From the NCBI RefSeq assembly GCF_011516635.5, contig NZ_CP096255.1, positions 8,009,501 through 8,073,500 of the forward strand: a stretch of DNA of 64,000 nucleotides, given 5' to 3'. The DNA comes from Bradyrhizobium barranii subsp. apii (GTDB lineage Bacteria > Pseudomonadota > Alphaproteobacteria > Rhizobiales > Xanthobacteraceae). This document shows positions 26,929 to 39,677 of the stretch, piece by piece. The notes under the pieces were generated by a model that was not told the DNA's origin, ran no database searches, and saw only the letters and a program-made list of their open reading frames with translations. Positions within the stretch are counted from its first letter, which is position 1, and each line of letters starts with the position of its first letter. The translations under genes were made by a program, and so were the position numbers.

Positions 26929-27228
26929 ATGACCCTGCACTTTACGCGCGTCGAGACTCCGGTGCATGAACTTGAAATCTGGATGGCGTGCAGCAGCGGA
27001 TTTTCGTTTGTGATCAGTAACGAAAGCCGCACCGGTCCTGGCCTTCACGGAAAGCCGGGCCTGGTTGCCTCATGGCGCCCCGTTGAAGAAAACAAGTCCG
27101 CAATCAAGCTTGGCGGCTCCCCCTTCAGTACCTTCGCCGAGGCCGAGAAGGCCTGCGAGGCGCTCCTGGAGGCACTTGAGCAGATGAGCGAATCGCAAAC
27201 TCCGACGACTGCGGTGACGCCGCAATAA
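26929..27228 (+). CDS. Hypothetical cytoplasmic protein, 99 aa
   Basis: The ATG at 26929 (MTLHFTRVETPVHELEIWMA) has GGAG seven bases upstream. The N-terminal half reads as antiparallel strands (ELEIWMACSSGFSFVISNES) and the C-terminal half as one helix (FAEAEKACEALLEALEQM). No recognised family and no signal peptide. Probably an ordinary small orphan protein; the ribosome site and codon use argue that it is real. Confidence 0.55.
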   Translation: MTLHFTRVETPVHELEIWMACSSGFSFVISNESRTGPGLHGKPGLVASWRPVEENKSAIKLGGSPFSTFAEAEKACEALLEALEQMSESQTPTTAVTPQ

Positions 27229-27287
27229 AGAGAGACCTCGGCTTCGTCGGGGCATCGAATTCCGCGCCGCCGGATTGTGCTGGCGCT

Positions 27288-28133
27288 TTACATCCCGCTC
27301 AGGCCGCTATCGACCGCGAGCGTCTGTGCGGTGACATAGACGCTTTCGTCCGACAGGAAGAACAACACGGCGTAGGCAATTTCCCATGCGGTGGCCTGCC
27401 GGCCGAAGGGGACGTGGCCCTTGCCGCGGCTGGGGCGGCCGGCGCCGGCTTCGCGGCTGTTGGGGGTGTCGACGAGGCCGGGATAGACGAGATTGGCGCG
27501 GATGCCGCGGCGCGATCCGAGATGGGCGATGTTGCGCATCAGGCCGCCGAGCGCGGCTTTTGAAGAATCATACGCCGCCATCTGCGATCCCGCTTTCAGC
27601 GCGGCGATCGAGGAGATGAAGACGATGGCGCCGCCATTGTCGAATTTCGGCATCGCTGCGCGGCAACAGAGCATGGGACCGCGAACGTTGACGTCGTAGA
27701 TCCTGTTCCACTCCTCGGGGCTGACGGCATCGAGCCCCGTCTTGCCGAAAGTGCCGATGTTCAGCACCATGCCGTCAAGGCCGCCCATCGCGCGATGCGC
27801 CTCCTCGATCATGCGCTGGACGTCAGGCTCCGACGTGACGTCGGCAGTGATGGCAAAGCCCTCGCCGCCTTCGTCGGTGATGTGCTTGACGGTCTGTTGT
27901 GCGGACGTCCGGTTGAGATCTGCCACCGCCACCTTCGCGCCCTCACGTGCGCACAAAATGCTCATGGCGCGGCCATTGCCGATTGGATCGGTGGCGGCGT
28001 CGAACACGCGCTGGCCGCCGCCGACGATCAGGATACGGCGTCCCTTCAGGCGTCCCCTGCCCGGCGCTTCGCCCAATGACTCCGCGCTTGGTGGACGGAC
28101 GTAACGCTCCGGCTTGCTATCGATTTCCGCCAT
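27288..28133 (-). CDS. SDR family oxidoreductase with extended N terminus
   Basis: 281 residues from the ATG at 28133. The cofactor loop is the atypical, longer form GGGQRVFDAATDPIGNGRA in place of TGxxxGIG, a recognisable SDR subgroup. LNIGTFGKTG replaces NNAG, the catalytic Ser lies in VFISSIAAL, and YDSSKAALGG is the Y-x-x-x-K motif. About 30 residues precede the fold. It should oxidise or reduce a small alcohol/ketone with NAD(P). It is the last gene of the TetR-CMD-SDR operon read leftward from 29371, which suggests a role in breaking down whatever the divergent receptor genes import. Confidence 0.85.
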   Translation of the reverse strand: MAEIDSKPERYVRPPSAESLGEAPGRGRLKGRRILIVGGGQRVFDAATDPIGNGRAMSILCAREGAKVAVADLNRTSAQQTVKHITDEGGEGFAITADVTSEPDVQRMIEEAHRAMGGLDGMVLNIGTFGKTGLDAVSPEEWNRIYDVNVRGPMLCCRAAMPKFDNGGAIVFISSIAALKAGSQMAAYDSSKAALGGLMRNIAHLGSRRGIRANLVYPGLVDTPNSREAGAGRPSRGKGHVPFGRQATAWEIAYAVLFFLSDESVYVTAQTLAVDSGLSGM

Positions 28134-28143
28134 CTCAGCCGCC

Positions 28144-28737
28144 CTACTTCTTGCCGCCGTCATAGACCTTCATGCCGGCCGCGGGATCGAGATCGGTTTC
28201 GGTTGCCTCGGTCAGGCGCGCCATCATCATATAGAAGCCGAGCGCAACGATGGATTCGACGATCTCCTGATCGCTGAAGTGTTTTCGCGCGGCAGCGAAG
28301 GTCGCCTCGGGCACGCGGACGTTCTCCACGATTTCGCGGCCGAATTTCAGCAAGGCTCGCTCCGCGTCGCTCAATGCGGCAGAGTCGTATTCGGTGCGTT
28401 CGACCGCATCGATCTGGCCTTGCGTGCAGCCGATGCCGAGCGCGATCGGAACATGCTGGCGCCATTCATAGGCGCCGCCCTCTAACTGGGCGGCCTGCAA
28501 GATCAAAAGCTCGCGGTTGACGGCTGAGAGCTTCTGCTTGTGCAGGATCGAATTGCCGAGCCGCATCGCCGGGATCATGTTGGCCTCGGCATGGGCCATC
28601 ATGCGGAAGATGTTGAGCTTGACCGGCATGCGGTCGAACGAGGCGCGGATATCGCCGCTCGTCGTCTCCGGATCAATCAGGGGCAGCCTTGCCACGCGTT
28701 TCTCCCTTGGGTTTTCGTTTCTTGTTGTCTTCGCCAT
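28144..28737 (-). CDS. Carboxymuconolactone decarboxylase (CMD) family protein
   Basis: 197 residues of helical CMD/AhpD fold: FRMMAHAEANMIPAMRLGNS, NRELLILQAAQLEGGAYEWR, with the E-x-x-x-E-W-x-x-H site and no C-x-x-C pair, so it is the decarboxylase/lactonase-like branch rather than the peroxidase branch. Close paralogues act on lactones or diverse hydroxy-acids, but the substrate here is unknown. The gene overlaps the TetR gene by 65 bases and is followed after ten bases by the SDR gene, so all three are one operon. Confidence 0.8.
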   Translation of the reverse strand: MAKTTRNENPREKRVARLPLIDPETTSGDIRASFDRMPVKLNIFRMMAHAEANMIPAMRLGNSILHKQKLSAVNRELLILQAAQLEGGAYEWRQHVPIALGIGCTQGQIDAVERTEYDSAALSDAERALLKFGREIVENVRVPEATFAAARKHFSDQEIVESIVALGFYMMMARLTEATETDLDPAAGMKVYDGGKK

Positions 28738-29371
28738 TGCCTGCCGCGATCAGCGACAGGAAAAAGGCGAGATAGCGGTCGATCGCCTCGATCACCTTCG
28801 GCCGCGGCGAAGGTGCTGCGCCCATCACGTAATGCTCGAGGCGGATGTAGATCAGGCCGGCCGCGAACAGCCGCGCGGTCTCGCGCGGATCGGGTGTCGA
28901 GACCAGGCCGGCGAGCGCAAAACCGCGAAAGTAATCCGTCATCATGCTCTGCTCGCGCGCGTAAAAATGGTCGGCGAATTTGGCGCGGATGCCGGGCACG
29001 CGGTTACGCTCGGCGGTGATTACTTTCTGGAACTGATGCTCCCGCGGATCAGACCATTGCTCGACGAGATCAAGCGCGAACTGGCGGCAAAACGCAGCGG
29101 GCTGGCGCGCCAGCTGCCTGTAGCGCGGCTCTTCCAATCGGCTCGCCGAACTGGCCGGGCCGTGCTCGGCCACGATCGCTTCCAGGATCGCGGCCTTGCC
29201 GGAGAAATGGTTGTAGAGGCTGCTTTCGCGAATGCCGACACGGCGCGCGAGCTCGCGCATCGAGGCGCCGCCATAGCCGCTCTGCGCGAACAGATTGAGC
29301 GCTTCGGAGAGGATGCGCTCGCGGGTCGTGGGCGCAGCCGCTTCCGCCGCGCTGGAGGTGTGGACAGCCAT
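28673..29371 (-). CDS. TetR family transcriptional regulator
   Basis: 232 residues with a textbook N-terminal helix-turn-helix (TTRERILSEALNLFAQSGYG, then MRELARRVGIRESSLYNHFS) and a helical ligand domain; the tail is Lys/Arg-rich (NKKRKPKGETRGKAAPD). It starts nine bases from a near-perfect 24-base palindrome at 29380, the likely site of autorepression and of control of the divergent receptor operon. The long 3' overlap (65 bases) with the CMD gene ties their translation. Ligand unknown, probably the imported substrate or its CoA-free product. Confidence 0.9.
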   Translation of the reverse strand: MAVHTSSAAEAAAPTTRERILSEALNLFAQSGYGGASMRELARRVGIRESSLYNHFSGKAAILEAIVAEHGPASSASRLEEPRYRQLARQPAAFCRQFALDLVEQWSDPREHQFQKVITAERNRVPGIRAKFADHFYAREQSMMTDYFRGFALAGLVSTPDPRETARLFAAGLIYIRLEHYVMGAAPSPRPKVIEAIDRYLAFFLSLIAAGNGEDNKKRKPKGETRGKAAPD

Positions 29372-29379
29372 GTGGCTTG

Positions 29380-29426
29380 ACTAACGAACGATCGTTCGCT
29401 AGTCAACCGTACGAACGATCGTTCGT
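29380..29426. promoter_or_regulatory. Twin TetR-type operators in the divergent promoter
   Basis: Two palindromes share the core CGAACGATCGTTCG. The first (29380-29403) is symmetric at 22 of 24 positions; the second, ACGAACGATCGTTCGT at 29411-29426, is a perfect 16-mer. Their centres are 27 bp apart. They lie nine bases from the TetR start codon and about 114 bases from the receptor gene start, the classic arrangement for a repressor controlling itself and a divergent operon. Confidence 0.8.
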
Positions 29427-29539
29427 TTCGCCAATCTGGCGGCAGCGGTCGCGGCCCCGCAAGTCCGCTTCGGGCGCTGTTCTCGCGTTTCAACTCCGCT
29501 CCAATGAGAGGCGGAGAGCAATTTTGGGGAGACGACCTC

Positions 29540-30751
29540 ATGGCGCGCTTTGCCCGCCTTCGCCTTCGTGCGGCCAGCATCCTGTTGCCGCTGCTCGCAG
29601 CCAGTGCCGTTCAGGCCCAAAGCGCGAAATACGATCCCGGCGCCGACGACAAGACCATCAAGATCGGCACCACCGCGCCGCTGAGCGGCCCAGTGTCCGC
29701 CTTCGCGCAGATCGCGAAATCGGCGGAGGCCTATTTCCGCAAGGTGAACGACGACGGCGGCGTCAACGGCCGGCGCATCCAGATGATCATCGCGGACGAT
29801 GCCTACAGCCCGCCGAAGACGGTGGAGCAGACCCGGCGGCTGGTCGAGAGCGAGGAAGTGCTGCTGATCTTCGGCGGTGTCGGCACGCCGACCAACAGCG
29901 CCGTGCACAAATATCTCAACGACCGCAAGGTGCCGCAGCTCTTCCTGGGTTCGGGCGCCGCGAAGTGGGACGATCCCAAGAGCTTTCCGTGGACCGTCGG
30001 CTGGCAGCCGACCTATCGCGACGAGGCGATCGCCTACGCCAAATATATTAAGGCGAGCCACGCCAATGCGAAGATCGGCGTGCTCTACCAGAACGACGAT
30101 CTCGGCAAGGATTATCTGAAGGCGCTGGAGGAAGGGCTCGGCAGCGGCGAAGCCATTGTCGCGCGCGCCGCCTACGAGACCTCGGCACCGACCGTCGACA
30201 CGCAGATCCTGCAACTGAAGACCGCCGGCGCTGACGTGGTGCTGGTAGCGGCAACGCCGAAATTTGCGGCGCAGGCGATCCGCAAGATCGGCGAGATCGG
30301 GTGGAAGCCCACGACCATCATCTCCAACGTCTCGGCCTCGATCAGCGGCGTGCTGGAGCCGGCCGGCAAGGACAATTCCACCGGCGTCATCTCCAGCCAG
30401 TATCTGAAGGATGCGACCGACCCGGCCTCGAAGGACGACGCGGGCTATAAGGAATGGCTGGCGTTCATGGACAAGTACCTGCCCGACGCCAACAAGAGCG
30501 ACTGGCTCAATGTCTACGGTTACACCATCGCGCAGACGCTGGTGACGGTGCTGAAGGCGTCCGGAAACGACCTCACCCGTGCCAATGTGATGAAGCAGGC
30601 CACGACGCTCAAGAACGTAAAGCTGCCGATGCTGATCAACGGCACCGCGGTGAACAATTCGCCCGAGCACTACACGCCGATGACGAGCCTCCAGCTCATC
30701 CGCTTCGACGGCACGCGCTGGGTGCCGTTCGGCGATCTCCTGAAGAACTGA
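29540..30751 (+). CDS. ABC transporter substrate-binding protein, branched-chain amino acid type (receptor 1)
   Basis: 403 residues from the ATG at 29540. Signal peptide LRLRAASILLPLLAASAVQA; mature part is a type I periplasmic binding protein (Peripla_BP_6): TIKIGTTAPLSGPVSAFAQI, YFRKVNDDGGVNGRRIQMII, VGWQPTYRDEAIAYAKYIKA, and ANAKIGVLYQNDDLGKDYLK. It has no permease or ATPase beside it, so it probably uses the Liv machinery elsewhere. First gene of the TetR-controlled rightward operon. Such orphan receptors in rhizobia often bind aromatic or xenobiotic acids; the ligand here is not inferable. Confidence 0.88.
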   Translation: MARFARLRLRAASILLPLLAASAVQAQSAKYDPGADDKTIKIGTTAPLSGPVSAFAQIAKSAEAYFRKVNDDGGVNGRRIQMIIADDAYSPPKTVEQTRRLVESEEVLLIFGGVGTPTNSAVHKYLNDRKVPQLFLGSGAAKWDDPKSFPWTVGWQPTYRDEAIAYAKYIKASHANAKIGVLYQNDDLGKDYLKALEEGLGSGEAIVARAAYETSAPTVDTQILQLKTAGADVVLVAATPKFAAQAIRKIGEIGWKPTTIISNVSASISGVLEPAGKDNSTGVISSQYLKDATDPASKDDAGYKEWLAFMDKYLPDANKSDWLNVYGYTIAQTLVTVLKASGNDLTRANVMKQATTLKNVKLPMLINGTAVNNSPEHYTPMTSLQLIRFDGTRWVPFGDLLKN

Positions 30752-30755
30752 GCCC

Positions 30756-31649
30756 ATGCGGCAGGTCAGGATCGGCAGCATGCGGATCGATCTCGTCAGC
30801 GAGATCCCTTCGCTCGCCTTCGACAAGACCTGGCTGTTCGCCAACGTCACCGACGCGGTGATCGCGGAGAACCGGAGCTGGCTCGATCATCGCTATATCG
30901 AGCCGGAGACCGGACGCTTCATCCTCAGCCACCACTCCTATCTCGTGCGCACGCCGCGCTGGACCGCCATCGTCGACACCTGCTGCGGCAATCACAAGCC
31001 GCGGCCGCGCGTGCCGGCGTGGAACAACCTCAACCAGCCTTATCTCGCAAACATGCGGGCGCTCGGTGTCGCCCCTGAAGAGGTCGACTTCGTGATGTGC
31101 ACGCATCTGCATGTCGACCACGTCGGCTGGAACACGCGCCTCGTGGACGGCCGCTGGGTGCCGACCTTCCCCAACGCGCGCTATCTGATGGGACGCGCCG
31201 AATATCGACACTTCGAAGCCGCGCACAATGCGGCGCCGAAGAACCCCGTGAACCACGGCTCGTTCGAGGATTCCGTACTGCCGGTGGTCGCGGCGGGCCT
31301 CGCCGAGTTCGTCGAGACCGATCATCGCCTGTTCGCCGATCGCGACGCAGGCTTACGCTTCGCGCCGGCACCGGGCCATACCGCCGGCAACATGCAGATC
31401 CACCTCAATGGCGGCCACGATCATGCGGTGATGTCGGGCGACGTCATCCACCATCCCATCCAGTGCGCCGCGCCGTGGCTGTCGAACGCCGCCGACGTCG
31501 ATCCGGCCGCCGCGGTCGCAACACGGATGGCGCTGCTGGAAGAACTTGCGGACACGCCGAGCTATCTGCTCACCGGCCATTTTCCGGCGCCGACTGCGGG
31601 TCGCGTGATCCGGCACGGCGACGCCTACAGATTTCGTTTCGAGGATTAG
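30756..31649 (+). CDS. MBL-fold metallo-hydrolase
   Basis: 297 residues with the metallo-beta-lactamase zinc motif CTHLHVDHVGWN (T116-H117-x-H119-x-D121-H122), GRAEYRHFEAAHN, the second-shell APAPGHTAGNMQIHL histidine and a MSGDVIHHPIQ Asp. The N-terminal FILSHHSYLVRTPRWTAIVD is characteristic of the lactonase-like subgroup (SLPs and AHL-lactonase relatives). It should hydrolyse a small ester, lactone or thioester. It begins five bases after the receptor gene and belongs to the same operon. Confidence 0.85.
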   Translation: MRQVRIGSMRIDLVSEIPSLAFDKTWLFANVTDAVIAENRSWLDHRYIEPETGRFILSHHSYLVRTPRWTAIVDTCCGNHKPRPRVPAWNNLNQPYLANMRALGVAPEEVDFVMCTHLHVDHVGWNTRLVDGRWVPTFPNARYLMGRAEYRHFEAAHNAAPKNPVNHGSFEDSVLPVVAAGLAEFVETDHRLFADRDAGLRFAPAPGHTAGNMQIHLNGGHDHAVMSGDVIHHPIQCAAPWLSNAADVDPAAAVATRMALLEELADTPSYLLTGHFPAPTAGRVIRHGDAYRFRFED

Positions 31650-31660
31650 GGGAAACCATC

Positions 31661-32629
31661 ATGAAGCTGCGCACCGTCACGCTGTCATTGCTCGCATTGC
31701 TGTCGGCGGCGCTGCCGGCACGCGCCGAGGATCCTGCCGCCTACCCCACCCACAAGATCAAAATGCTTCTGCCCTATGCGGCCGGCGGCGGCGGCGACGT
31801 GATCGGCCGCTTGCTCGCCGACAAGATGGGCAAGACGCTGGGACAGGGCGTCTATATCGAGAACCACACGGGTGCTGCCGGCACACTCGGCACGCAGATG
31901 GTCGCGGTGGCGCCGAACGACAGCTACACCATCACCGTCGGCGGCATGACCACGCATGTGCTGGCGCCCGCGATCTATCCAAAACTGCCCTACGATTCGA
32001 TCAAGGATTTTACGACGATCGGGCGTATCGGGACGTCCTCGATCATGCTGGTGGCGACCAGGGATTTTCCCGCCAATGACATCAAGAGCCTGATCGCGCT
32101 TTCCAAGAAGGGCGAGCCGATCCAGTACGGAAGCTGGGGCGTCGGCTCGACCGGACAATTCTGTGCGGAAATCCTGATGCAGCAGACCGGCATCAAGATG
32201 GATCACGTGCCGTTCAACGGCATCGCCAAACTCGCGGGCGACTTGCTTGGCGGCCACATCTCGCTTGCAACGCTGGACATGGCAACCGCAACGCCGCTGG
32301 TGAAGGACGGCTCTATCAAGGCGCTGGCCGCCTGCGGCGAGCGTTCGCCGAGCCTGCCTGACGTCGCAACCTACAAGGAACAGGGCGTGCCGTTCGACCG
32401 CAGCCTGTCCTGGGCGATGTATGGTCCCGCCGGCCTCGCTCCCCCGATCGCACAGAAATTGTCGGCGGCGTTGAAGGACGCGCTGGGCGATGCCGAGGTG
32501 AAGGAGAAACTTTTGGGGCTCGGCATCACGCCGCAATACGTGCCGGGCGACGAGCAGCGCGACATCAACGCCCGCGACATCGCGGCCTGGAAGCAGGTTG
32601 CCAAGGATGCAGGGATAGAGGTCAAGTGA
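31661..32629 (+). CDS. Bug-family tripartite tricarboxylate transporter receptor
   Basis: 322 residues from the ATG at 31661, which follows GGGGAAA. Signal peptide TVTLSLLALLSAALPARA; mature Bug fold: YPTHKIKMLLPYAAGGGGDV, GQGVYIENHTGAAGTLGTQM, and AEILMQQTGIKMDHVPFNGI. Bug proteins capture carboxylates in the periplasm and are usually many more numerous than the TctAB membrane parts; none are encoded here. With the preceding receptor it gives the operon two different periplasmic binding proteins, perhaps for two forms of the same acid substrate. Confidence 0.88.
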   Translation: MKLRTVTLSLLALLSAALPARAEDPAAYPTHKIKMLLPYAAGGGGDVIGRLLADKMGKTLGQGVYIENHTGAAGTLGTQMVAVAPNDSYTITVGGMTTHVLAPAIYPKLPYDSIKDFTTIGRIGTSSIMLVATRDFPANDIKSLIALSKKGEPIQYGSWGVGSTGQFCAEILMQQTGIKMDHVPFNGIAKLAGDLLGGHISLATLDMATATPLVKDGSIKALAACGERSPSLPDVATYKEQGVPFDRSLSWAMYGPAGLAPPIAQKLSAALKDALGDAEVKEKLLGLGITPQYVPGDEQRDINARDIAAWKQVAKDAGIEVK

Positions 32630-32660
32630 CGATCGCGAGCGATCAGAAGGGAGCGCGGGC

Positions 32661-33200
32661 ATGAGCCGCATTTTCGGCGCGGTGCGCCAGAACGGATACG
32701 TCGTGCGGGACATCCACGCCGCGATGAAGCACTGGATCGAGGTGATGGGCGTCGGCCCCTGGTACTACATGGACCGCGTCAAGACCGACTGGTTCCGCCA
32801 TCGCGGCCAGGACTCCGCGGTCGAGATGAGCATTGCGCTCGCCAATTCCGGCGATCTCCAGATCGAGCTGATCCAGCAGCGCAACGATGCGCCCTCGCTG
32901 TACAGGGAATTCCTCGACGCCGGCCACGAGGGCCTCCAGCACATGTCCTACTGGAGCCATGACTACCAGGCGCTCTACGACAAGGCGATCGGGCTCGGCT
33001 ACCGGATAGGCCATGAGGGCCAGATCGGCGGCGACAAGGGGCGCTTTGCCTATTTCGACACGCAGGCACACCCGGGCACGATTATCGAGATCTCCGACAT
33101 CAGCGGCACCAAGGGACCGTTCTTCGAGAAGGTCCGGCAGGCGGCGATGACCTGGGACGGGACGCGGCCGATCCGCGAGGTCGGCGGAGCGAAATCGTAA
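32661..33200 (+). CDS. VOC (glyoxalase/dioxygenase superfamily) protein
   Basis: 179 residues with a vicinal-oxygen-chelate fold: VVRDIHAAMKHWIEVMGVGP at the start, ELIQQRNDAPSLYREFLDAG, HEGLQHMSYWSHDYQALYDK and FAYFDTQAHPGTIIEISDIS. The HMSYW His and the IIEI Glu are in the places of metal ligands. The VOC group includes lactoylglutathione lyase, ring-cleaving dioxygenases and epimerases; the best guess is metal-dependent chemistry on the imported compound. Last gene of the operon begun at 29540. Confidence 0.82.
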   Translation: MSRIFGAVRQNGYVVRDIHAAMKHWIEVMGVGPWYYMDRVKTDWFRHRGQDSAVEMSIALANSGDLQIELIQQRNDAPSLYREFLDAGHEGLQHMSYWSHDYQALYDKAIGLGYRIGHEGQIGGDKGRFAYFDTQAHPGTIIEISDISGTKGPFFEKVRQAAMTWDGTRPIREVGGAKS

Positions 33201-33292
33201 GGGCCGTCGCAGGCGGGGTTCATCTCGCTGCCGGCGCGGTGGGCGGCAAACCATGCTATAGACCTCGTGTCCGAACCTTCAGCGAGGCAAGC

Positions 33293-34105
33293 ATGTCCAA
33301 CACTGACAAGGTTTTCGCCGGCTCGATTCCGAAAATCTACGACGAGTATCTCGTCCCGCTGATCTTTGCCCACTACGCCGCCGACATCGCGAAGCGTATC
33401 GCGGCTCTTTCCCCGTCGACGATACTGGAAACCGCGGCAGGTACCGGCGCCGTTACGCGGGCCGTGACCGCGGCGCTGCCTCCCGGCATCCGTTACGTCG
33501 CAACCGATCTCAACGAGCCGATGCTCGCGATCGCGGCGCAGCGCCAGGGTGAGGACCCGCGCATGACATGGCGTCAGGCGGATGCCACCGCCCTGCCCTT
33601 TGACGAAGCCGCGTTCGACGCGGTCTGCTGCCAGTTCGGCGTCATGTTCTTTCCCGACCGCGTCAAAGGCTTTGCCGAGGCAAAGCGGGTGTTGCGACCG
33701 GAAGGCACGTTCGTATTCAACGTCTGGGACCGCATCGAGGAAAACGTGTTCGCTGACGACGCCACCGCCGCGCTCGGAAAAATGTTTCCCGATGATCCGC
33801 CCCGTTTCATGGTGCGGACGCCGCATGGCTATCACGACAAGGCCATTATCAGAGCCGATCTGGAACAAGCGGGCTTCCGCCACATCTCGATCCAAACGCT
33901 TCCTGCGGTGAGCCGCGCGCCCACGCCCGAATATGTGGCGGTCGCGCTCTGCCAGGGTACGCCGCTGCGCAACGAGATCAAGGCCAGGGATGCCAGCAAG
34001 CTTCAGGCAGCGACCGACCTCGTCGCCGAGGCGCTCCGATCGCGCCATGGGTCCGGAGCGGTCGAAGGCAAGATTCAGGCGATCGTGATCGAGGCTCGGC
34101 CGTAG
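33293..34105 (+). CDS. Class I SAM-dependent methyltransferase
   Basis: 270 residues from the ATG at 33293. Motif I is LETAAGTGAVTRAVTAALPP, with post-I TDLNEPMLAIA, motif II-like DAVCCQFGVMFFPDRVKGFA, and motif III in RVLRPEGTFVFNVWDRI, the ubiE/menG-like layout of methyltransferases that act on small molecules. The start is supported by in-frame alignment to MSNTDKVFAGSIPKIYDEYL, the usual first helix. The substrate is unknown. It converges on the GlxA-type regulator gene at 34116. Confidence 0.85.
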   Translation: MSNTDKVFAGSIPKIYDEYLVPLIFAHYAADIAKRIAALSPSTILETAAGTGAVTRAVTAALPPGIRYVATDLNEPMLAIAAQRQGEDPRMTWRQADATALPFDEAAFDAVCCQFGVMFFPDRVKGFAEAKRVLRPEGTFVFNVWDRIEENVFADDATAALGKMFPDDPPRFMVRTPHGYHDKAIIRADLEQAGFRHISIQTLPAVSRAPTPEYVAVALCQGTPLRNEIKARDASKLQAATDLVAEALRSRHGSGAVEGKIQAIVIEARP

Positions 34106-34115
34106 GTGCGGACCC

Positions 34116-35081
34116 TCAGCGCAGGTTTGCGCGAAGCTCGCGCACGCCGCGTCCGAGCCGTTCCCGCAAGAGCGTCCGGAGCGTCGCGCCGTCCTCATAG
34201 CCGACCTCGGCGGCGATCGCATCGACGTCGAGACCGCTGCCATGCAGCAGCGACTGCGCGCGCTCGACTCGCAGATCCTGAAAGTAGGAGAGCGGAGACT
34301 TACCGAGCACCGACTCGCACCGGCGCTGCAAGGTGCGTGCGCTCGTCGCGAGCGCACTGGCGGCCTCCTGCAGCGAAAACCCTTGCTTGAGATGTTCGCG
34401 CGCCCAGCGCTCGAAACGCTGGATGAGCGGATCAGCCTGCGCGAGGTGATTGGGAATAATGAAAGGCGCTTGCAGGGAGCGCAGGTCGGCGAGCAGATAG
34501 CGCGACACGACGGCCGCGAGCTCGGGGCTCGCCTGGCGTATGAACCACAGCGCAAGATCGAGATGCCCCATCGCGGCGCCCGCCGTGACGACGCGGTCCG
34601 ATGTCACCAGCATGCGTGTCTCATCGAGACGAACATTGGGGTAGCGTTGGCGAAACAAGGGTGACAGCCACCACGTGGTGGTCGCGTCCCGTCCATCGAG
34701 CAGCCCCGCCTCCGCCAGCACGAAGGTACCGATGCAGGACGCGGCGATGCGCGCGCCCTCGGCGTACCAGGACTGGAGCTGTTTCACTGCCTCTCTGACA
34801 TCGCGCCGGTCGAGCGCCGGAATCAGCTGTTCCGGCCGGCTCGTATTCAACGCCGGCACGATGACCCAGTCCGGCTTCAGATCGGACGTTACCGATTTGA
34901 CGGGGATCGCGAAGCCCTGCCCGGATCGGACCTTCTTCCGCACGCCGACAATTGAGACATCGAAATGGGGCGCTCCGCCCGTTTGAGCGGCTGCGAAATT
35001 GTTGGCGATCGTGAACGCATCGAGCGTCACGGTCAGCCCGGTGTCCCAAAATCCCTCCAGGGCGAGCAATTGAATGCGCAT
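34116..35081 (-). CDS. GlxA family AraC-type transcriptional regulator
   Basis: 321 residues. Residues about 1-200 are a DJ-1/PfpI-like domain (MRIQLLALEGFWDTGLTVTL, AARIAASCIGTFVLAEAGLL) with Cys in the nucleophile-elbow position (ASCIGTF). Residues about 230-318 form an AraC DNA-binding domain with two helix-turn-helices (SLQEAASALATSARTLQRRC, then VDAIAAEVGYEDGATLRTLL). It may sense a reactive carbonyl or amine-like ligand. It diverges from the 35347 gene with 265 bases between, so regulation of that pair is plausible though no operator is evident. Confidence 0.85.
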   Translation of the reverse strand: MRIQLLALEGFWDTGLTVTLDAFTIANNFAAAQTGGAPHFDVSIVGVRKKVRSGQGFAIPVKSVTSDLKPDWVIVPALNTSRPEQLIPALDRRDVREAVKQLQSWYAEGARIAASCIGTFVLAEAGLLDGRDATTTWWLSPLFRQRYPNVRLDETRMLVTSDRVVTAGAAMGHLDLALWFIRQASPELAAVVSRYLLADLRSLQAPFIIPNHLAQADPLIQRFERWAREHLKQGFSLQEAASALATSARTLQRRCESVLGKSPLSYFQDLRVERAQSLLHGSGLDVDAIAAEVGYEDGATLRTLLRERLGRGVRELRANLR

Positions 35082-35346
35082 GGCGGAAACGCTCTCAAAG
35101 TTGTCGTTTACGACAATACCGTTCGAACGGAAGCAAGCCTAGCTTGCGATGCAACGGCAACCGGAACGAAGGCCTTCATCGCGATCGATAGATAAGGGCA
35201 ATCATCTGAATAAACAAAGCTATTCCAGATGTGCGCTCGAGGAAACGATGGCGTAAACGCATCTAAAAATGGCGCTTCTGCCAACATTGCAGGAGGTCCT
35301 GGATCCGATGCCGTCCACTGACAAGCAGCAATCCAAAGGAGCCAAC

Positions 35347-35640
35347 ATGAAAGTCATCGCCATCGGTAACATCGGCAAGGCACCGACACCCGAGCAGCGG
35401 CAGCAGATCATGCCGAGGGAAGTGCCGGCCACGCTCAAGCTCTATCTCGACGGGAAGATCGAGCAGTTCTGGTTTCGCCAGGACAAGCCAGGCGTGGTCT
35501 TCCTGATGAACGTCGAATCCCTCGAACAGGCCAAGGCGACCGTGGAAGCACTGCCGCTCGTCACCGACGGCTTCGCCACCTACGAGCTGATGCAGGTCGG
35601 TCCGCTCGCGCCGCTGGGCATGCTCATCCAGGGCAAGTGA
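35347..35640 (+). CDS. Small cytoplasmic protein of the muconolactone-isomerase/YCII-like superfamily, 97 aa
   Basis: The ATG at 35347 (MKVIAIGNIGKAPTPEQRQQ) has AGGAG six bases upstream, while upstream in-frame starts have none. The product has the sequence TLKLYLDGKIEQFWFRQDKP, FLMNVESLEQAKATVEALPL and TYELMQVGPLAPLGMLIQG, a ferredoxin-like dimeric barrel. The same core occurs in the exported paralogue at 35794. No catalytic residue can be named. Possibly controlled by the divergent GlxA-type regulator. Confidence 0.7.
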   Translation: MKVIAIGNIGKAPTPEQRQQIMPREVPATLKLYLDGKIEQFWFRQDKPGVVFLMNVESLEQAKATVEALPLVTDGFATYELMQVGPLAPLGMLIQGK

Positions 35641-39589: not shown

Positions 39590-39635
39590 CGTCGTTTCAC
39601 TGTCGTTGGAGGAAGCAACTGCGGGACAAGACAGG

Positions 39636-39661
39636 CGGGCGGGCTGGTACCAGCCCGCCCG
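39636..39661. terminator. Perfect 26-bp palindrome between the receptor gene and the CoA-transferase gene
   Basis: The palindrome is symmetric about GGTACC at 39646-39651, with GC-rich arms to CGGGCGGGC / GCCCGCCCG. In RNA it is an 11-bp stem with a four-base loop. It is 16 bases after the receptor stop (reverse strand) and 47 before the next start. No T run follows, so it may lower read-through or protect the receptor message. Confidence 0.55.
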
Positions 39662-39677
39662 TCACATTGCGTCGATC

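Follow-up and report, generated by a model that had tools for sequence, protein, structure and literature searches.

In Tn10, the repressor gene tetR and its target tetA are divergent and have separate, overlapping promoters with two palindromic operators of near-equal standing; the target encodes a resistance pump. QacR, also of the TetR family, binds as two dimers to one palindromic operator. In Enterobacter lignolyticus, the TetR-family gene eilR is divergent from its target eilA, with two palindromic operators between the genes (PMC6127294, in excerpt). The operator eilO is a 24-bp motif of two 11-bp inverted halves 2 bp apart, and the two operators lie 36 bp from each other, start to start (PMC6127294, in excerpt). 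Furthermore, symmetric bidirectional promoters, described by Warman, Grainger and colleagues, are widespread; they share a symmetric -10 element, and their starts are 7-25 bp apart, most often 18 (PMC10268837, in excerpt). The bidirectional acrR-acrA promoter is repressed in both directions by a TetR-family protein (PMC12825309, in excerpt).

The locus of Bradyrhizobium barranii subsp. apii described here has two palindromes (site 1 and site 2) between a tetR-family gene and a divergent operon. It resembles tetR-tetA of Tn10 in the divergent genes, the (predicted) overlapping promoters and the two palindromes, and differs from it in the separateness of the promoters, the equality of the operators and the kind of target. 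With QacR it would share a palindrome bound by a TetR-family protein, the binding of two dimers at site 1 being a candidate reading. As the excerpts describe EilR-eilA, one operator is embedded in both promoters and the other is nearer to the target gene, which is also how the Bradyrhizobium locus appears to be built. However, the operator sequence of EilR-eilA is another one and its target is an efflux pump, whereas in Bradyrhizobium the outer arms of the palindrome themselves seem to serve as the promoter elements, and site 2 is armless. EilR-eilA is an experimental precedent for the layout, the Bradyrhizobium version being unusually compact and its principle familiar. With the promoters of Warman, Grainger and colleagues, as excerpted, the locus would share one short, nearly symmetric element driving divergent transcription, but its own predicted starts are separated by ~41 bp, with each predicted -35 element overlapping the -10 opposite.

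Genes flanking the control region

The window (the whole stretch analysed, 64,000 bp) covers positions 8,009,501-8,073,500 of the main contig of a 10.58-Mb genome in three contigs. The sequence-only reading of this DNA had placed TetR-CMD-SDR to the left of the palindromes and two classes of solute-binding protein, a metallo-beta-lactamase-fold (MBL) hydrolase and a VOC protein to the right; domain matches bear out this gene order. The features are, in window coordinates:

27288..28163, minus strand: SDR oxidoreductase, third gene of the leftward operon (family match)
28144..28737, minus strand: CMD-family protein, second gene of the leftward operon; the ORF overlaps the end of tetR, and the true start may be further in
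28673..29371, minus strand: TetR/AcrR-family regulator, 232 aa, TetR_N and TetR_C_7 (AefR-like) by domain matches
29377..29406, no strand: site 1, 30-bp palindrome TTGACTAACGAACGATCGTTCGCTAGTCAA, 14 of 15 pairs symmetric and one mismatched
29385..29398, no strand: core of site 1, CGAACGATCGTTCG, putative TetR recognition sequence; seen as ACGAACGATCGTTCGT beside the TetR of another family (genome G715, see below)
29411..29426, no strand: site 2, ACGAACGATCGTTCGT, 16-bp symmetry, outer arms absent; putative auxiliary operator at the predicted rightward start
29378..29406, minus strand: predicted tetR promoter, -35 TTGACT (29406-29401), 17-bp spacer, -10 TAGTCA (29383-29378), predicted start at the A of the ATG (29371)
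29377..29405, plus strand: predicted rightward promoter, -35 TTGACT (29377-29382), 17-bp spacer, -10 TAGTCA (29400-29405), predicted start near 29411-29412
29540..30751, plus strand: SBP1, Peripla_BP_6 solute-binding protein; the ORF opens at 29504
30756..31649, plus strand: MBL hydrolase, lactonase/organophosphate-hydrolase-like by sequence
31661..32629, plus strand: TctC (Bug-type) solute-binding protein
32661..33200, plus strand: VOC-family protein (Glyoxalase_4), 78% identical to the VOC protein of G715

For SBP1, the start at 29540 is preferred because of GGGGAGA upstream and an N-terminus that looks like a signal peptide by eye. The regulator matches PF00440 at its N-terminus (E 5.9e-15, 55.2 bits, cut-off 24) and PF14246 (TetR_C_7, AefR-like) at its C-terminus (E 5e-8, 33.4 bits, cut-off 22). 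All 15 named NCBIfam TetR equivalogs listed (ScbR, AcrR, RutR, AcuR, KstR etc.) were below their cut-offs, the best being ScbR_bind_reg (41.5 vs 150 bits). An AlphaFold run with a 7-row alignment gave a poor model (mean pLDDT 60.5, pTM 0.45).

Two palindromes at a single locus

The core CGAACGATCGTTCG occurs exactly at 29385-29398 and at 29412-29425, 27 bp apart from start to start. The pair of palindromes with identical cores reported by the sequence-only reading is thus confirmed, and instead of the many random copies that this reading had named as evidence against it, the genome (10,580,853 bases, three contigs) contains just these two exact copies, both in the tetR/SBP1 intergenic region. 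The segment given for them (29380-29426) was right in that both palindromes are real, but its left edge truncates site 1, the symmetry of which extends over 29377-29406 with the layout TTGACTA-N-CGAACG-NN-CGTTCG-N-TAGTCAA. First- and second-order Markov models trained on the window predict 0.31 and 0.68 exact core copies per genome, respectively; a single chance copy would therefore be unremarkable, whereas a pair 27 bp apart in one divergent intergenic region is not. Within the window, CGAACGATCGTTCG with up to three mismatches was found 8 times vs a shuffle mean of 9.0, i.e., without excess, and the exact copies alone stand out. No 30-bp palindrome with fewer than one mismatched pair was detected in the window scan; one further palindrome with a single mismatched pair, the GC-rich GGCGGGCGGGCTGGTACCAGCCCGCCCGTC, is located at 39634-39663. 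Searches for the core and seven other strings revealed no mention in the open-access literature, which omits most subscription journals.

Six further places in the whole genome match CGAACGATCGTTCG with one mismatch. A wider regulon was considered as well, but the 16-bp pattern with up to two mismatches had 61 forward vs 82 reversed-control matches in this genome; as there is no excess over the control, no regulon is claimed. Of the five non-locus places listed with one mismatch, three (L090, L093, L095) are inside ORFs of at least 360 codons; for the other two (L091, L094) the longest covering ORFs have 98 and 48 codons. L094 directly follows an ORF resembling an aspartyl protease (by eye). 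Near L091 (G000:C1, around 4711327), there is a cluster of GAACG/CGTTC-like inverted repeats that resembles the operator without matching it, outside any ORF longer than 98 codons.

Occurrence of the palindrome follows that of tetR

A tetR orthologue (E <= 1e-40) was found in 51 of 146 genomes of the genus, and the 30-bp pattern of site 1 (up to three mismatches) is present in the identical set of 51; the remaining 95 genomes have neither at the thresholds used. Among the matches listed, every 30-bp pattern adjoins tetR and has no mismatch at the specified positions. It occurs once in 49 of the 51 genomes and twice in the other two (G108 and G138), both copies being at the locus. In these two, the module of site 1 and site 2 is tandemly duplicated upstream of tetR (L053 in G108, L058 in G138). 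At the level of the order, TetR (E <= 1e-30) was detected in 7 of 397 genomes, all of the same genus, and at that of the class the 30-bp pattern was found in 2 of 385, both Bradyrhizobium; plasmids yielded no homologue of the window TetR at E <= 1e-20. The same genome has ten other TetR matches, 22-40% identical; in the 350 bp upstream of each, the palindrome of sites 1 and 2 was absent among the best three palindromes, with scattered half-sites at some.

For conservation, 61 homologous loci were found in named genomes (57 titled Bradyrhizobium). Sixty rows were compared, namely the window and 59 loci; L164, where the contig begins inside the gene, and L168, a Sphingomonadales MAG locus matching at 40% over 59 residues, were excluded. 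The tree, and the column counts made on its rows, comprise 59 rows (L164 and L167 left out). The named loci and those of the genus genomes (G handles) are largely from the same strains and were not summed.

The arms TTGACTA-N16-TAGTCAA are intact in all 60 rows, and the 14 arm columns show no change in the 59 tree rows. Two of the 12 core columns changed once each (column 10 in L157, column 21 in L119); the variable columns of site 1 are column 8 (3 changes), column 23 (9 changes) and the two centre columns (1 and 3 changes). By comparison, fourfold-degenerate third positions of tetR have on average 5.8 changes and 7% of them are unchanged (68 columns); conservation of the arms is thus far above that of neutral sites. 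Absence of change is not rare at constrained sites, however, as 70% of the first and second codon positions of tetR are unchanged, with a mean of 1.0 change (454 columns).

The same core beside a related regulator outside the genus

Throughout the phylum, exact ACGAACGNNCGTTCGT was found in 9 of 299 genomes: four at this locus in the genus and five with single matches elsewhere. The 16-bp pattern as such is not enriched outside the genus, since the reversed control matched 13 genomes vs these 5 others. One of the five, G715, belongs to the same class but to another order and family, and here the core, letter for letter that of site 2, stands between a leftward VOC gene and a rightward tetR. 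The encoded regulator is 43% identical to the window TetR over 196 columns. Downstream of it, G715 encodes an MBL-fold protein (23% identical to the window MBL over 201 columns) and, further on, SnoaL-like and SDR-like genes (by eye). At the other four outside matches, no TetR was recognised by eye among the ORFs listed.

The distance from the end of the 14-bp core to the tetR ATG is 13 nt both at site 1 of the window and in G715. The flanks in G715 read TTGCCTT-core-TAGCAAC vs TTGACTA and TAGTCAA in Bradyrhizobium; both strands retain TTG where the -35 would lie, and the -10 of tetR retains TA. Because the core is kept beside a TetR of 43% identity, whereas the arms have drifted but still have TTG and TA, the core is best read as the TetR-binding site and the arms as promoter, a division that rests on one outside genome, G715. 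Relatives of its regulator are scarce: at E <= 1e-20, a search of 240 genomes of the class yielded G715-type TetR in two (G715 and the genome of the window) and one of 180 genomes of the order of G715 in a single case (G715 itself), and plasmid records contained none at E <= 1e-15.

Co-occurrence with tetR, confinement to one locus and retention of the core in G715 support the proposal of the sequence-only reading that the palindromes are operators of the adjacent TetR serving both directions; from these data we infer control of both operons by this regulator. The sites, which had been regarded as a pair, are both likely TetR operators but not equivalent. Site 1 is larger and near-invariant, and it is probably the primary operator as well as a two-way promoter, while site 2, missing or degraded in 11 of 60 rows, appears auxiliary.

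Site 1 as a putative two-way promoter

On each strand, the arms read TTGACT-N17-TAGTCA, so that the -35 of one predicted promoter overlaps the -10 of the other. This motif scores 7/12 (TTGACT 5/6; TAGTCA 2/6 vs TATAAT) at 17-bp spacing, and the T at -7 is absent. When intergenic hexamer pairs spaced 16-18 bp apart are compared, no pair scores above the palindrome in 58 of 60 rows for the rightward and in 52 of 60 for the leftward direction. A strict sigma-70 scan of 27000-35500 returned no promoter vs a shuffle mean of 1.4. The published Bradyrhizobium consensus is TTG-N16-18-TATA, and in the same paper two promoter types are both absent at 67% of the mapped start sites (PMC4842269, in excerpt). 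In six rows (L110, L137, L139, L142, L146, L161), the first rightward start codon follows site 1 at a distance of just 54-62 nt, which leaves little room for another rightward promoter. The arms are best read as putative overlapping -35/-10 elements of a two-way promoter, though with a weak -10.

The predicted rightward leader of the window has no more structure than shuffles (z -0.48); in its minimum-energy fold, site 2 forms a 6-bp stem at the 5' end. A stem-loop of the type CTCCGC...GCGGAG is located just before the Shine-Dalgarno (SD) sequence of the first rightward gene (window 29480-29540), and a fixed expression for it matched 47 of 60 rows. Its last pair varies in a compensatory manner (CTCCGCC/GGCGGAG, CTCCGCT/AGCGGAG, CTCCGCG/CGCGGAG). 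In the leader of the window itself, the CTCCGC...GCGGAG hairpin is not part of the minimum-energy fold.

On the other side, the gap between the palindrome and the tetR ATG is 6 nt in 30 rows, 5 in 26 and 4 in 3; in L166, where the codon listed first is not a start codon, counting from the ATG that follows gives a gap of 6 nt. All 26 rows with a 5-nt gap have an in-frame stop inside the palindrome, and the start there is consequently the near ATG, or an ATG two codons upstream in L155, L156 and L159. In rows with a 6-nt gap the start is less certain, as the far end of the palindrome offers an in-frame TTG in many of them. SD-like tetramers are absent within 18 nt of the tetR ATG in 53 of 60 rows; the other seven have AAGG 4 nt before it (L166 counted to its ATG), a possible weak SD. 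If TTGACT-N17-TAGTCA is the promoter, the predicted first base of the transcript is the A of the ATG or its neighbour. The distance of 4-6 nt from the palindrome to the tetR start thus suggests that the tetR mRNA is leaderless or nearly so. The map of transcription starts of B. japonicum USDA 110 includes 320 leaderless transcripts (PMC4842269, in excerpt).

Site 2 and the SBP1-MBL genes

The distance between the sites is 27 bp in 45 rows, 26 bp in 3 and 23 bp in 1. The sequence-only reading had suggested that two dimers might lie on roughly opposite faces of the helix; the 27 bp of the window do correspond to 2.57 turns (at 10.5 bp per turn), but strict helical phasing is not conserved, given the spacings of 26 and 23 bp. 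Intact site 2 (CGAACGNNCGTTCG) is absent in 11 of 60 rows, some of which keep a degraded remnant (e.g., L118, L125). In all 49 rows carrying it, its flanks are unlike the arms of site 1, with at most 4 and 5 of 7 bases matching.

Site 2 is intact in all 40 tree rows with SBP1 and in 8 of the 19 without it (59 tree rows); in other words, it is missing or degraded in 0 of 40 vs 11 of 19. MBL always accompanies SBP1. On a quick tree with six informative pairs, the independent site 2/SBP1 comparisons gave ~6 pairs in favour of the association and none against it (median p 0.03, range 0.03-0.06). The presence of SBP1 has changed at least 15 times on the tree and that of site 2 at least 10 times. 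The association could partly reflect deletions that removed both.

One supported clade has SBP1-MBL in 10 of its 11 rows, with the rightward TctC absent from the stretch compared. In 16 rows without SBP1-MBL, TctC comes first, and it has an SBP1-like MA... start in 15 of them (MARF in 8), which suggests that internal deletions put TctC behind the leader and start codon of SBP1. The rows with such a start are L110, L118, L120, L125, L126, L131, L134, L135, L137, L140, L145, L146, L147, L158 and L161.

From its place at the predicted start of the rightward transcript, site 2 would interfere above all with initiation in that direction. Engineered EilR promoters were more tightly repressed, and gave higher induced output, when a second operator lay at the start site (PMC6127294, in excerpt).

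Proposed mechanism and alternatives

We consider it probable that the 47-bp segment controls a local TetR divergon that responds to a substrate, in which both sites act as operators and site 1 lies in two overlapping promoters. A TetR dimer would bind the 16-bp core ACGAACGATCGTTCGT. At site 1, this core would sit in the 17-bp spacer of two fully overlapping promoters, so that one bound dimer would shut off tetR-CMD-SDR and SBP1-MBL-TctC-VOC together; two polymerases would exclude each other there, and the tetR message would have little or no leader. Site 2, which would span roughly +1 to +16 of the rightward transcript and lie upstream of the -35 of tetR, would add repression mainly of the rightward operon. 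TetR would be released by a ligand, perhaps a substrate of the encoded enzymes that is of the lactone or carboxylate type. A wider proposal, towards which we do not quite lean, is that site 1 unites operator and symmetric promoter in one 30-bp element between a leaderless tetR and a catabolic operon, with obligatory exclusion of polymerases, that it is distinct from the shared -10 class, and that site 2 is a removable, direction-specific add-on.

The arms could instead belong to the binding site, with two TetR dimers bound cooperatively to the 30-bp site 1, as known for QacR, and one to site 2. Such binding would suit arms that are unaltered in every one of the 60 rows, a stricter conservation than a weak promoter would seem to call for, and that stay so where the core has changed (L119, L157); the poor -10 of the promoter reading points the same way. 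It sits badly with a site 2 that is armless in every row carrying it, with the identical core of G715, whose different arms yet retain the -35-like TTG on both strands, and with arms correctly placed for promoters on both sides, and we regard it as a serious but on the whole unlikely alternative. We give less credit to the idea that site 2 is functionless, i.e., a duplicate of the core kept by chance and lost when neighbouring DNA was deleted. Indeed, all 11 rows without an intact copy also lack SBP1-MBL, several of them have a shortened stretch behind site 1, and tandem copying of the region has happened (L053, L058); nevertheless, site 2 is intact wherever the tree rows have SBP1, though bases between and after the sites vary, and 8 rows without SBP1 keep it.

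A palindrome does not by itself reveal which protein binds it, and another regulator, or a nucleoid or replication factor, might use the two sites, the adjacent TetR being incidental. This would leave unexplained the match with the presence and absence of tetR across 146 genomes, the single locus per genome and the recurrence of the core next to a diverged TetR homologue of another family, and we think it highly improbable. Finally, chance palindromes in a GC-rich genome can practically be dismissed: the Markov expectation allows for an exact core copy, but not for a pair 27 bp apart in one intergenic region that is conserved in 51 of 146 genus genomes and the core of which recurs beside an outside homologue; conservation contradicts a chance origin.

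If the reading of site 1 as operator and two-way promoter is true, it would represent a class of bidirectional promoter distinct from the shared -10 type. The locus offers a well-defined TetR operator that seems confined to one place in the genome and exists in natural variants (with or without an intact site 2, spacings of 27, 26 and 23 bp, tandem doubling, altered arms in a distant homologue), a series suited to the study of the interplay between symmetric promoter, repressor site and polymerase competition. A TetR subfamily is, moreover, connected here with a set of genes (VOC, SDR, MBL-fold hydrolase) found again in another family.

Possible substrates

Six solved structures are related to MBL at E <= 1e-10; among them are organophosphorus hydrolases, methyl parathion hydrolase and a reconstructed lactonase ancestor, which does no more than hint that the substrate is an ester or a lactone. 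Close relatives of VOC (E <= 1e-60) were found in 3 of 100 phylum genomes, namely G715 and two of the genus, and distant ones (48-54% identical) on 21 plasmid records. Six of these 21 plasmid loci were inspected; five are in LacI-controlled operons with RuBisCO-like and transporter genes and one is in another cluster, and the substrate is thus not named by these neighbourhoods. The loci L193, L194, L195, L197 and L198 are from Azospirillum, Pseudosulfitobacter, Comamonadaceae, Neorhizobium and Paracoccus, respectively. Their VOC genes have as neighbours genes for LacI, a TRAP transporter (annotated as ABC in L197), a RuBisCO-like protein and a member of the four-carbon acid sugar kinase family (hypothetical in L197), which may be a hint at sugar-acid-like substrates.
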